Source of the DNA: Marinobacterium arenosum
GTDB lineage: Bacteria; Pseudomonadota; Gammaproteobacteria; Pseudomonadales; Balneatricaceae
Reading direction: 5' to 3'
Length of the DNA stretch: 64,000 nucleotides
NCBI RefSeq assembly: GCF_019795155.1
Contig: NZ_JAILYN010000012.1
Span: 1 to 64,000 of the forward strand
This document shows, piece by piece, positions 8,148 to 48,789 of this stretch; position 1 is the stretch's first letter; the number at the start of each line of letters is the position of its first letter. The notes below the pieces were generated by a model that was not told the origin of the DNA, did not search any database, and saw nothing but the letters and a program-made list of their open reading frames with translations. The position numbers and the translations under genes are program-made.

Positions 8148-8200
8148 AAGCCACAAGCTTGAAGCTGACCGCTTACAGCTTCCCGCTTTGCGAACCTAAG
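8148..8200. repeat. Degenerate short-motif repeat (GCTT/AGCTG family)
   Basis: The gap between rdgB and hemW contains CAAGCCACAAGCCACAAGC and then GCTT, GCTG, GCTT, GCTT, GCTT separated by three bases each. It resembles a decayed version of the GCTTTCC/GCTGTTA arrays at 33548-33662. No gene is present. Confidence 0.5.
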
Positions 8201-18652: not shown

Positions 18653-19265
18653 GTAGGGCCCCGCAGCAGGGGCTTCAGCCGCGACCTGTAGTGGTTCTAT
18701 TGAAATCCGCGGATGTCGCCCTCGGAGCGGGCTGCTACGAAGCTCGGCCCCGTAGCAGCGGGCTCCGACCGCGATGGGGTTGGCCCGGTCCGCGGGTGTC
18801 GCCCTCGGAGCGGGCTGCTACGAAGCTCGGCCCCGTAGCCGTGGGCTCCGACCGCGATTGGGTTGGCCCGGTCCGCGGGTGTCGCCCTCTGAGCGGGCTG
18901 CTACGAAGCTCGGAACCCGTAGCAGCGGGCCCCGACCGCGATGGGGTTGGCACAGTTCGTGGGTGTCGCCCTCGGAGCGGGCTGCTACGAAGCTCGGCCC
19001 CGTAGCAGCGGGCTCCGACCGCGATGGGGTTGGCCCGGTCCGCGGGTGTCGCCCTCTGAGCGGGCTGCTACGAAGCTCGGCCCTGTAGCAGTGGGCTCCG
19101 ACCGCGATGGGGTTGGCACAGTTCGTGGGTGTCGCCAGCGGAGTGGGCTGCTACGAAGCAGGGAATTTATTCGCGACCCGCGCTGGTTCTATTGAAATCC
19201 GCGACCTGTCGCCCGCGGCATCCAATGGGCAAAAAAGTAGCGGGCTGCTACGAAGCTGGAGCCCA
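18653..19265. repeat. Tandem REP/REPIN-like array, about 83-bp units
   Basis: Units begin at 18752, 18835, 18919, 19002 and 19085 (period 83-84 bp), with divergent end units before and after. Each unit starts GTAGCAGCGGGCTCCGA and ends TCGGAGCGGGCTGCTAC, near-perfect inverted arms that would fold each unit into a long hairpin. Two inner variants exist (CCCGGTCCGCGGG and CACAGTTCGTGGG), and units 2-3 match units 4-5, which indicates a 166-bp block duplication. The array fills the gap between the convergent cyaY and waaA genes. It is not coding, although GC-rich frames stay open through it. Confidence 0.88.
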
Positions 19266-33547: not shown

Positions 33548-33662
33548 GCTTTCCGCTTTCCGCTTTCCGCTTTCCGCTTTCCGCTTTCCGCTTTCCGCTT
33601 GAAGCTGTTAGCTGTTAGCTGTTAGCTGTTAGCTGTTAGCTGTTAGCTGTTAGCTGTTAGCT
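33548..33662. repeat. Two adjacent 7-bp tandem arrays (GCTTTCC and GCTGTTA)
   Basis: GCTTTCC is repeated about 7.5 times (33548-33600), then GAA, then GCTGTTA about 8.4 times (33604-33662), ending 13 bp from the glnE stop codon. The second unit also forms the array at 41380-41443. Perfect copies suggest recent expansion by slippage. Confidence 0.95.
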
Positions 33663-40026: not shown

Positions 40027-40053
40027 GCCCGGCCGTTTACGGCCGGGCTTTTT
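40027..40053 (+). terminator. Rho-independent terminator after pit
   Basis: GCCCGGCCG (40027-40035) pairs with CGGCCGGGC (40040-40048) around TTTA, followed by TTTTT. Confidence 0.95.
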
Positions 40054-40174
40054 ATTTCTTTTAATATCTGTTTCGCACACTGTTGCCGAACGCCTCCCCG
40101 TCGAACTGGCCGATAGACCGATCCGGGTAAAGGTTGCACAATGAACAGCAACCCATTGCCGAAAGGACAGCCCG

Positions 40175-41326
40175 ATGCGCAACGCCTGCCCCGACCTGGT
40201 CACCATGCTGGCCGAACTGATCGCCAGCCCATCCGTCAGCTGTACCCAACCGGCGCTGGATCAGAGCAATCTGGCAGTGATCGAGAAGCTGGAAACCTGG
40301 CTGTCAGGGTTGGGCTTCAGCACCGAAGTGATCCCGCTACCCGGCCAGCCGGGCAAGGCCAACCTGATCGCCACCCTGGGCAGTGGTCCCGGCGGTCTGG
40401 TGCTGTCCGGCCATACCGATACCGTGCCTTGCAACCCGGAACTCTGGACGTCGGACCCGTTCAAGCTGGTGGAACGGGATCAGCGCTTCTACGGCCTGGG
40501 CAGTTGCGATATGAAGGGCTTTTTCCCGCTGGCGATCGAGGCGGCCAAGGCGTACCTGGACAAGCCGCTGAAACAGCCGCTGATCATCCTGGCCACCGCC
40601 GACGAGGAGAGCTCGATGGCCGGCGCCAAGGCGCTGGCCGATGCCGGCCGGCCGAAAGCCCGCTACGCAGTGATCGGTGAGCCGACCAGCCTGACGCCGA
40701 TCTACATGCATAAGGGGATGATGATGGAGGCGGTGCGAATTCGCGGCCGGGCCGGCCACTCGTCCGACCCCAGCCTCGGCGCCAGCGCGCTGGAGGCGAT
40801 GCACGCGGTGATGGGCGAGCTGATCGCCTACCGCGGCGAATTGCAGGGCAAATATAGCAACGCCGATTTCAAGGTCAGCGTGCCGACCCTGAACCTCGGC
40901 TGCATCCACGGCGGCGACAACCCGAACCGGATCTGCGGCTACTGCGAGCTGGAGTACGATCTGCGACCGTTGCCGGGCATGGCGATCGATGCACTGCGTC
41001 ACGAGATCGACCACCGTCTGCAGCCGCTGGCCGAGCGCTTCGGTGTGGCGATTGAAACCGACGAGCTGTTCCCGGCGATTCCGCCGTTCGAGAACCGGCG
41101 TGATTCGGAGCTGGTTCTGGCCGCCGAGAAGCTGACCGGCCACCGCGCCGAACCGGTGGCGTTCGGTACCGAGGCGCCGTTCCTGCAGCAACTGGGGATG
41201 GATACCATCGTCATGGGACCGGGCTCGATCGACCAGGCGCACCAACCCGACGAGTACCTCGCATTGGACCAGATCAAGCCCTGCGTGGCGGTGCTGGAAC
41301 AGCTGATCGGCAAATATTGTCTTTAA
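40175..41326 (+). CDS. argE: Acetylornithine deacetylase
   Basis: M20-family metallohydrolase (383 residues) that removes acetate from N-acetylornithine in the linear arginine pathway. Metal ligands are visible: His80 in SGHTDTVP, Asp112 in GSCDMKGFF, the glutamate pair in TADEESSMAG near 145, and the C-terminal AHQPDEY histidine near residue 358. The dimerisation domain spans roughly 180-290. AAAGGA lies 8 bases before the ATG. argA follows on the same strand, separated by a 7-bp tandem repeat array. Confidence 0.94.
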   Translation: MRNACPDLVTMLAELIASPSVSCTQPALDQSNLAVIEKLETWLSGLGFSTEVIPLPGQPGKANLIATLGSGPGGLVLSGHTDTVPCNPELWTSDPFKLVERDQRFYGLGSCDMKGFFPLAIEAAKAYLDKPLKQPLIILATADEESSMAGAKALADAGRPKARYAVIGEPTSLTPIYMHKGMMMEAVRIRGRAGHSSDPSLGASALEAMHAVMGELIAYRGELQGKYSNADFKVSVPTLNLGCIHGGDNPNRICGYCELEYDLRPLPGMAIDALRHEIDHRLQPLAERFGVAIETDELFPAIPPFENRRDSELVLAAEKLTGHRAEPVAFGTEAPFLQQLGMDTIVMGPGSIDQAHQPDEYLALDQIKPCVAVLEQLIGKYCL

Positions 41327-41379
41327 GATTTGAGTTAACAGATGAAAGTTGACAGTGTACTGTCGAGCCCGCTGAGTTA

Positions 41380-41443
41380 GCTGTTAGCTGTTAGCTGTTA
41401 GCTGTTAGCTGTTAGCTGTTAGCTGTTAGCTGTTAGCTGTTAG
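41380..41443. repeat. GCTGTTA 7-bp tandem array upstream of argA
   Basis: Nine perfect GCTGTTA units plus one base, ending 19 bp before the argA ATG. The unit is the same as in the 33604-33662 array. Preceding bases 41327-41360 (GAGTTAACAGATGAAAGTTG) look like a decayed relative. Confidence 0.95.
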
Positions 41444-41462: not shown

Positions 41463-42830
41463 ATGGACGGCCATTTTCCGGATAAACCCAACGTGATCGA
41501 CGACATCAAAAAATACGTCAACTGGTTCCGCCACTCTTCACCCTACATCAATGCCCATCGCGGCAAGACTTTCGTGCTGATGCTGGGCGGCGAGGCGATC
41601 CTCGACAGCAACTTCAACAATATCGTGCACGATATCGCGCTGCTCAACAGCCTCGGCGTGCGACTGGTGCTGGTGCACGGTTCGCGACCGCAGATCGAAC
41701 AGCGGCTGCAGGAGAGCAATGTCGATTCGCGATTGCACCACGATCTGCGGGTAACCGACAGCGAAACCCTGCAACGGGTGATCGAAGCGGCGGCGTCGAC
41801 CCGGGTATTGATCGAGACCCGGTTGTCGATGGGGCTGGCCAATACGCCGATGCACGGCGCCCGTATCCGGGTGGTGTCCGGCAATTTCGTGACCGCCAAG
41901 CCGATGGGGGTGCACGAGGGGGTCGACCTGCGTCATACCGGCGAGGTACGGCGAATCGACCGCAAGGCGATCCAGCATCATCTGGACGCCGGTGAAATCG
42001 TACTGCTGTCCCATCTCGGTTACTCGCCGACCGGCGAGCTGTTCAACCTGACGGTGGAGGATGTCGCCACGGCGGCGGCGGTGACCCTGCAGGCCGACAA
42101 ACTGGTGTTGTTCGGCGAGCAGAACGGTGTCACCGACAGTACCGGCGAGCTGCGCAGCGAGCTGCTCGCTCGCAAGGCGGAACGGCTGGTGCACCAGTAC
42201 CTGTCCCGGCTGGAGGATGCGGAAACGCCACACAGCGAACTCTGTTGTCAGCTGGAGGCGGCGGTGGCGGCCTGCAACGGCGGCGTCGAGCGTAGTCACC
42301 TGATCAGCTATCGGGACGATGGCGCGTTGATCACCGAGCTGTTCACCCGCGAAGGGGCCGGCACCATGGTGCTGCGCGAATCCTATGAGCAGGTACGCGA
42401 TGCCGGTATCGACGATGTCGGCGGTATCCTGGAATTGATCCGGCCGCTGGAGAAAGCCGGCGTGCTGGTACGCCGTTCACGCGAGCTGCTGGAGACCGAG
42501 ATCGACCGCTTTACTGTAGTTGAGCGCGACGGTGCCATCATCGGTTGTGCCGCGCTTTATCCGTTTCCGGAGGAGGGCATGGCGGAGTTGGCCTGCGTGG
42601 CGATCTCCAACGACTACCGCGGCGGCCAGCGTGGCGATTCGCTGCTGGAAGCGGTCGAGCGGCAGGCGCGCGAGCAGCAGTTGAACAGGTTGTTTGTACT
42701 GACCACCCGCACTGCGCACTGGTTTATCGAGCGTGGTTTCGCCGAGGTGGCGGTCAGCGAACTGCCGGCCAAGAAACAGGAACTCTATAACCTGCAGCGG
42801 AATTCGAAGGTGTTCGTCAAGGCGCTCTGA
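41463..42830 (+). CDS. argA: N-acetylglutamate synthase (amino-acid acetyltransferase)
   Basis: First enzyme of arginine synthesis: acetyl-CoA plus glutamate gives N-acetylglutamate. The 455-residue protein has an amino-acid-kinase-like domain (about 25-290; LVLVHGSRPQIEQRL near 65-80, LSHLGYSPTGELFNL near 180) that binds arginine for feedback inhibition, and a C-terminal GNAT domain (about 310-455; ACVAISNDYRGGQRGDSLL). ATG 41463 has no clear ribosome-binding site; GTG at 41490 gives MIDDIKKYVNWFRHSSPYIN, also a plausible start. The tandem array immediately upstream may affect expression. Confidence 0.94.
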   Translation: MDGHFPDKPNVIDDIKKYVNWFRHSSPYINAHRGKTFVLMLGGEAILDSNFNNIVHDIALLNSLGVRLVLVHGSRPQIEQRLQESNVDSRLHHDLRVTDSETLQRVIEAAASTRVLIETRLSMGLANTPMHGARIRVVSGNFVTAKPMGVHEGVDLRHTGEVRRIDRKAIQHHLDAGEIVLLSHLGYSPTGELFNLTVEDVATAAAVTLQADKLVLFGEQNGVTDSTGELRSELLARKAERLVHQYLSRLEDAETPHSELCCQLEAAVAACNGGVERSHLISYRDDGALITELFTREGAGTMVLRESYEQVRDAGIDDVGGILELIRPLEKAGVLVRRSRELLETEIDRFTVVERDGAIIGCAALYPFPEEGMAELACVAISNDYRGGQRGDSLLEAVERQAREQQLNRLFVLTTRTAHWFIERGFAEVAVSELPAKKQELYNLQRNSKVFVKAL

Positions 42831-47335: not shown

Positions 47336-47436
47336 TCTTCCATTCATCGACGCTCCTACATAGGAAGCGCTAGTGGATACGACCTGCCGAGCTCCGTTAA
47401 CTCATAACTGTTAACTAAAAACTGTTCACTCAAAAC

Positions 47437-48789
47437 TCAGCTACTCGGCAGGCTTAACTGAAATAACGCGCCGCCTTCGGGGGCCTCGGCGACGTTCAGA
47501 TCGCCGCCGTAGGTGCTGAGGATGTCTACCGCCACCGCCAGACCGATCCCCTGACCCTGCACCGAGGTATCGGCCCGCTCGCCACGCTGCAGAATCTTCT
47601 GGCGCAGCGCCGGCGAGATGCCGGGGCCGTTGTCGGCGATCTCGATCTGCAGCCAGCGGCTGTTAACCGAGGCGCTGACCCGCACCTGGTCGTCGCCGTA
47701 CTTGAAGGCGTTTTCCAGTAGGTTGCCGAGCAGCTCCATCAGGTCGCGCTCGTCGGCGGCGACGTTCAGGCCGTCCGGCAGCTCCAGCCGGGTATCGATC
47801 CCCTTGTCGCGGTAGACCTTGGCCAGCGCCGCCAGGATCCGCTCCACCACCGGTTTCAAGGCCACCCCGCCGGACAGTGGTGCCGGGCCCTGGCTTTTCA
47901 CCGCCCGGGCCAGCTGGTACTGGACGATCTGGTCCATCCGATCGACCTGCTCCTCGACCGCTTGCTGGTAGTTCTGCTGTGACTGGGATTCTTCGGCTGC
48001 GCCGCGAATCACCGCCAGCGGCGTCTTCAGGCTGTGGGCCAGGTCGCCGAGCGTATTGCGGTAACGGCTGCGCTGCTGCTGTTCACTGTGTAGCAGCAGG
48101 TTCAGGTTATCGGTGACCGCCTGCACCTCGGTCGGGTAATTGCCCTGCAGCTGTTCGGCTTCGCCGGCTTCGATCCGCTTGAGGTCTGCCGCCAGTTGTT
48201 TCAACGGCTGCAGCCCCCAGGTCATGATGCTCCATTGCACCGCCAGCGCCAGCACCAATACGGCAACGAACCAGAAGGTCAGCTGCTTACGGTAGGCGGC
48301 CAGTGCATGGCTGGTCGGCTGGTCGCTTTCCAGCACGGTGAAAAGTAGATGGTGTTCCTTCTCCAGGGTTTCCCAGATCACCGGAAAACGGACCCGGTAG
48401 AGTTGATTGTCGGCCAGGTGGTCGAATTGCAGCTCGCCGGGCAGCGGCATCGGGTCGGGCGGCGGCAGAATGCTGTCGGCCAGCAGGGCACTGGAGGTAG
48501 TGCGCCACAGCAGTCGATTGTCGGCATCGTGCAGCGCGCCATAGAGACCGGATTGCAGCTGGTTGAAGCGCGGCTCGGTCAGCAGTTCCGGCATATGTAC
48601 CTCGCCGCCGGCCACTTCGGCAGCGCCGATCAGCAGATAGACCTGGGTTTGCAGCCGGTCGCGCACCGCGGTTTCCAGGCTGTTGTGGTAGGACTCCAGC
48701 AGCGCCCACCAGGCCACCAGCATCACCAGTGGCATCAGCAGCATCGATGCCAGCAGCAGCCGGCTGCGTAGCGAGTTGGGCAGCCGCAT
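47437..48789 (-). CDS. Sensor histidine kinase, PhoQ-like
   Basis: A 450-residue membrane histidine kinase: TM1 (about 11-32), a 135-residue periplasmic sensor, TM2 (about 172-193), HAMP-like linker, H-box LGDLAHSLKTPLAV with the phospho-histidine near residue 255, and the ATPase domain with N-box LLGNLLENAFKYG, DNGPGIS and QGIGLAVAVDI. The H-box wording AHSLKTPLA is characteristic of PhoQ relatives. The periplasmic domain lacks an obvious acidic Mg2+ patch, so the signal may differ. It overlaps the response-regulator gene by one base. Confidence 0.9.
   Translation of the reverse strand: MRLPNSLRSRLLLASMLLMPLVMLVAWWALLESYHNSLETAVRDRLQTQVYLLIGAAEVAGGEVHMPELLTEPRFNQLQSGLYGALHDADNRLLWRTTSSALLADSILPPPDPMPLPGELQFDHLADNQLYRVRFPVIWETLEKEHHLLFTVLESDQPTSHALAAYRKQLTFWFVAVLVLALAVQWSIMTWGLQPLKQLAADLKRIEAGEAEQLQGNYPTEVQAVTDNLNLLLHSEQQQRSRYRNTLGDLAHSLKTPLAVIRGAAEESQSQQNYQQAVEEQVDRMDQIVQYQLARAVKSQGPAPLSGGVALKPVVERILAALAKVYRDKGIDTRLELPDGLNVAADERDLMELLGNLLENAFKYGDDQVRVSASVNSRWLQIEIADNGPGISPALRQKILQRGERADTSVQGQGIGLAVAVDILSTYGGDLNVAEAPEGGALFQLSLPSS

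Follow-up and report, generated by a model that had tools for sequence, protein, structure and literature searches.

Does the perfect heptamer array that lies between argE and argA of Marinobacterium arenosum act as a slippage-driven switch of argA, as originally predicted, or is it one case of something that is not peculiar to that gene? In the window, by which we mean the whole 64,000-nucleotide stretch of DNA that was analysed, the sequence reads GCTGTTA nine times without a mismatch at 41380–41442, and Tandem Repeats Finder delimits the tract at 41376–41443 (forward strand; period 7, 9.7 copies, 100% match). Two units in a row match the window 15 times, always inside this array or a second one at 33604, and this doubled unit was absent from all 100 dinucleotide shuffles, so the array stands far above chance. 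The nine perfect units originally described are thus borne out by the repeat finder, the doubled-unit count and the shuffles. The view that the unit is not specific to this locus also holds: the whole genome (4,802,898 bases in 115 contigs) has 6 sites with three or more GCTGTTA units.

The argE gene (acetylornithine deacetylase, 40175–41326, forward strand; NF003474, 575.5 bits against a cut-off of 460) is followed on the same strand by argA (N-acetylglutamate synthase; NF003641, 682.5 bits), whose product has its best named match in a Marinobacterium MAG (79% identical). The argA reading frame is open from an ATG at 41463, which is not conserved in the genus; GTGATCGACGA, at window position 41493, is identical across all four aligned genus members, its GTG is conserved, and in the congeners G002 and G003 there is no ATG, GTG or TTG between the last in-frame stop and this GTG. 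Judged by this conservation, argA likely starts at GTG 41493 rather than at the ATG and runs to 42830. The 19 bp originally given between array and start codon is correct arithmetic for ATG 41463, but because the GTG is conserved and the ATG is not, we take the array-to-gene distance to be 49 nt. The array lies in the argE-argA spacer, 49 nt past the argE stop.

This spacer was also said to be where the argA promoter or leader must be. A promoter scan found nothing at the array, and a consensus scan of the argE-argA spacer for intrinsic terminators (a hairpin and then a T-run) was negative, ruling out a canonical terminator there. What does resemble transcription signals stands before argE: a terminator-like stem at 40027–40048 (forward strand), from a consensus scan that is weak on its own (3 sites found, 1.4 expected in shuffles), and a predicted argE-argA promoter, TAGACC-N17-CACAAT, at 40114–40142 (forward strand). 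The core of the promoter-like box is shared with other genera; AA[AG]G..TGCACAAT occurs in 11 of 48 upstream regions (which include repeat records of one genome, e.g. L177 and G020), 8 times before argE and 3 times directly before argA, the last in G015, G023 and G013. G010 has a near variant of the box, and the three congeners G001, G002 and G003 gave no match to it. Since both the terminator-like site and the promoter-like box precede argE, transcription probably enters argA from argE; the two genes would then probably form an operon, with the array behind argE and not in the argA promoter.

Among 30 argA loci compared, the end of argE was recognised in 18, either overlapping the aligned argA start or up to 211 nt before it, a count that omits argE variants without the searched motif (e.g. 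in G018 and G020). In 11 of those 18 the two genes overlap or are separated by at most 25 nt. Spacers in the genus, measured to the GTG, are longer than these close-packed gaps of relatives: 166 nt here, 226 nt in G001, and 84 nt in both G002 and G003. No heptamer array is present in the argE-argA spacer of these three congeners, and that of G001 carries a different tandem repeat.

The array is one of a family of tracts spread over the genome. In 573,781 bases of this genome, RCT repeated at least five times at period 7 forms 22 runs (both strands counted, palindromic arrays twice), and there are none at periods 4–6, 8–11 or 13. The core [AC][AG]CT gives 17 strong tracts in 973,781 bases, all 17 intergenic; eight other cores give 0 to 4 tracts each in those bases. 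Tracts with at least four core hits number 30, again all intergenic, and 20 of them are degenerate. The constancy of the core is inflated, because the tracts were found by it. A single GCTGTTA family is ruled out, the core being common to many words. So is the idea that degenerate tracts are worn copies of one array, since their free letters show no significantly greater similarity inside a tract (0.335) than between tracts (0.317; permutation P 0.225). The commonest free triplet is GTT, and outside the core the words are genome-specific: MACTTGY in G181, MACTGTT and MACTCAA here, and AACTCAA and AACTAAA in G405. Further members in the window, all given on the forward strand, are a degenerate tract at 8156–8190, a GCTTTCC array that runs into the second GCTGTTA array in a convergent spacer (33548–33662), and a degenerate tract at 47399–47440, at the 3′ end of a minus-strand gene that ends at 47437. 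A TAACAGC array that merges into a long AACTCCC array (G000 C99:6310–6500; L028, L284) may be compared with the GCTTTCC-to-GCTGTTA junction near 33600. The window also contains an 83-bp unit in tandem (18706–19159; 5.5 copies, 90% match).

Clusters of tracts gather near stop codons. Of 26 clusters, the 24 that have two predicted neighbours (gene calls from a simple in-house script) include 13 that lie no farther than 30 nt from a stop codon, where 5.7 are expected, and none of 2000 random placements reached 13; within 30 nt of a predicted start there is 1, against 2.4 expected. At 49 nt from its stop, the argE-argA array falls outside this 30-nt class. A strand bias of the tracts relative to neighbouring genes was rejected, the orientations being mixed. 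Samples of G005 and G013 contain 2 and 3 tracts respectively, all called intergenic (the G013 gene calls are poor), and a 160-kb sample of G002 contains none.

Tracts of opposite orientation are arranged in a fixed order. Among 18 pairs of opposite tracts no more than 70 nt apart, drawn from the 974-kb sample and 22 short loci picked for having tracts, 17 run AGY then RCT, and the one reversed pair adjoins a regular pair. Across 274 genomes of the class, a strict inverted pair was found in forward order in 10 and in opposite order in none. Palindromic AGCT arrays fit both orders and were set aside when whole-genome patterns were judged; every opposite-order match listed includes a palindromic AGCT arm, and many non-palindromic sites are among the forward-order matches listed. 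At 18 loci of G366, G273, G405 and G138, both arms (three hits each) stand in forward order at 13 and in opposite order at none. In G181, 11 of 12 elements lie within 8 nt of a predicted stop, with 10 of the 12 in pattern-chosen loci and one of 13 clusters (L330), which is no heptad element, removed by eye. The right arm alone spans about 300 nt of CACTTGY words at one G181 locus (C1:1182074–1182450; L319).

The core pattern by itself matched 20 of 57 relatives, with a backward-read control that was higher in G005 and G020 and high in G045, and a stricter MACT pattern matched 54 of 369 genomes, part of which the control matched too; core-only counts are not specific, because the controls match as well. 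In seven genomes (G140, G180, G196, G227, G263, G302 and G304) the backward control consists of TGA/TCA-core inverted heptad pairs, and in opposite order it matched none of the 274 genomes. Since these control pairs occur in hairpin order only, the ordering seems to extend to pairs with other cores. The heptad class occurs in scattered Gammaproteobacteria, and its rule is searchable.

A heptad element of this kind comprises a left arm of AGYK-NNN words, a short centre and a right arm of MRCT-NNN words, and its transcript could form an imperfect hairpin. At argE-argA the candidate left arm is degenerate and lies at 41333–41357 on the minus strand, with three of four opposite-orientation heptads matching the core (41333, 41347 and 41354). 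When the 52-nt piece was shuffled 20000 times, three matches were reached in 25 cases, and 43 of 3289 intergenic pieces reach that number; this arm is weak, and the locus is not among the 17 forward pairs counted. The orientation of the array itself is set by vocabulary alone, because its AGCT is palindromic. The spacer has a predicted fold of −55.4 kcal/mol (z −3.93; 0 of 200 shuffles as low), in which the beginning of the array is base-paired to the segment after the argE stop, while the remainder of the array folds on itself; the z-score is owed partly to the array, which folds at −32.6 kcal/mol alone. The array may affect argA through leader or spacer structure. Thirteen of 18 elements of this genome fold at z < −2, argE-argA included (median −3.85, with two near or above zero). 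The free letters of the two arms, compared within the same element and between different elements, do not co-vary significantly (P 0.052 in this genome, 0.389 in G181, 0.86 in G366 and 0.169 in G405). Proof of selection for pairing thus failed, and we regard the hairpin as a result of shared words in opposite orientation. The centres of this genome's elements have no mutual homology except for one 10-nt match.

Unit number differs between species at the same place. Two G181 elements were compared with three congeners of that genome, their positions fixed by flanking anchors. At element 1 the four species have 4, 4, 4 and 8 counted units in the right arm and 2, 4, 5 and 4 in the left; the centres differ and the outer ends are similar. 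At element 2 the right arm has 8, 3 and 5 counted units and the left arm 4, 4 and 4. This turnover at orthologous elements, in which the two-arm layout is retained, is between species, and is not switching inside a population. At the element 2 site of G427 C40 (L316 anchors) there is unrelated sequence in which GTAGGAGCGAAT palindromic pieces recur, as though a hairpin of one type had been swapped for another. Of the original interpretation, then, the perfection of the array, its other copies and, in comparable arms of another genus, the change of units between species are supported, but the obligatory promoter at the array is not. The natural differences in unit number amount to a length series for testing the tuning of operons by intergenic hairpins or the recognition of seven-base words.

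REPs, BIMEs and REPINs are familiar examples of short hairpins that lie at the 3′ ends of genes in many copies per genome, and the elements here share that habit; REPs and REPINs have a GTAG/GGAG foot beside the palindrome, and REPs are not known to have period-7 arms. With about even confidence, we read the argE-argA array as part of an intergenic heptad element that follows the 3′ end of argE, namely its right arm, lengthened by slippage. If so, argE and argA would be co-transcribed through the element, which might act like an intercistronic REP-type hairpin, shielding the argE mRNA or dampening argA, and unit number would tune the argE:argA ratio by degrees without an on/off switch of argA. 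The anatomy of the element is far more certain than this function, and the main rival grants it no argA function at all: slippage builds heptamer microsatellites, and selection merely bars them from genes and promoters, so that neutral repeats are tolerated at gene ends. The congeners without an array, the drift of unit number between species, the arms that fail to co-vary and the element centres, unrelated but for that one short match, all suit this rival. Plain slippage, however, leaves the fixed order of opposite arms unexplained, and likewise degenerate tracts that keep their core while their free letters show no more similarity inside one tract than across tracts; we hold neutrality to be a tentative possibility, somewhat improbable as the whole account.

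We consider it very improbable that argA is switched by the gain or loss of units, whether this acts on promoter spacing or on the structure of the leader. Nine perfect units 49 nt from the argA start would suit such a switch, as would the differences in unit number of comparable elements between species, and there is a precedent in Haemophilus influenzae, where a 7-bp tandem array likewise lies upstream of a gene, hmw1A, and heptamer number has a measured, lowering effect on expression (PMC8262952). The hmw1A tract, however, sits between promoters of an adhesin gene (PMC8262952), whereas here the promoter scan is empty at the array, the promoter-like box stands before argE, the unit recurs at 6 sites and argA is a biosynthetic housekeeping gene. 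For the comparable heptamers of Xanthomonas, Rehm et al. 2015 (PMC4692102) judged phase variation unlikely. A trans-acting factor that reads or writes heptads seems to us unlikely, though less so than a switch; because the core is shared while the rest is genome-specific, the arms run one way and they do not co-vary, oriented protein recognition or templated word addition fits better than selection for a hairpin alone. A Y1 transposase (PF01797), the class that includes the RAYT enzymes which mobilise REPs and REPINs, is present in 39 of 57 relatives and in 6 of the 7 array-rich ones; there is none in G008, which rules it out as a necessary mover. All 7 of the array-rich relatives have a reverse-transcriptase domain (PF00078), compared with 17 of the other 50 (Fisher P 0.0013), with the rich set defined post hoc, the match in this genome a contig-end fragment, and kinship and genome size as confounders.

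Heptamers with inverted pairs near stops are already known, and the closest in print are GGGAATC of Xanthomonas and TAACTGA of Beggiatoaceae. The tracts described here are intergenic heptamer SSRs of the type treated in those two reports: period 7, tandem and over-represented between genes. Rehm et al. 2015 (PMC4692102) described GGGAATC and GGGGA(C/T)T heptamers in Xanthomonas and Nostoc. The Xanthomonas arrays resemble ours in being mainly intergenic beside ordinary genes, in often lying within 50 bp of a stop codon, in forming close inverted pairs (70 in Xcc and 75 in Xac) and in changing length between species at kept positions; they differ in that theirs is one G-rich, quadruplex-forming sequence, and ours an [AC][AG]CT core with many words per genome (PMC4692102). 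Neither GCTGTTA nor any other word observed contains a GGG tract in its core. The TAACTGA direct repeats of Beggiatoaceae are intergenic heptamers that, read in phase as AACTGAT, match our core; they are one word in 2–6 copies, mostly just 5′ of start codons in forward orientation, with one inverted case and with related heptamers seldom repeated (MacGregor 2015, PMC4679880). Here the unit is different, and clusters lie near stops; just 1 of the 24 has a predicted start no more than 30 nt away. Stem-loop families that concentrate at the 3′ ends of genes and are numerous in a genome were reported by Petrillo et al. 2006 (PMC1590033), whose text has no match to "heptan-" or "heptam-". In the PMC literature we found no description of an [AC][AG]CT heptad hairpin family. 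The argA array is thereby recast from a single-gene oddity to a member of a rule-bound intergenic class, defined by core, period 7, arm order and siting at gene ends. An Rfam search of 14 loci returned just two glycine aptamers, both in L242, ruling out a known RNA family as the identity of the elements; at that locus (positions 66–242, G366) the tandem glycine riboswitch aptamers lie directly 5′ of a heptad element.
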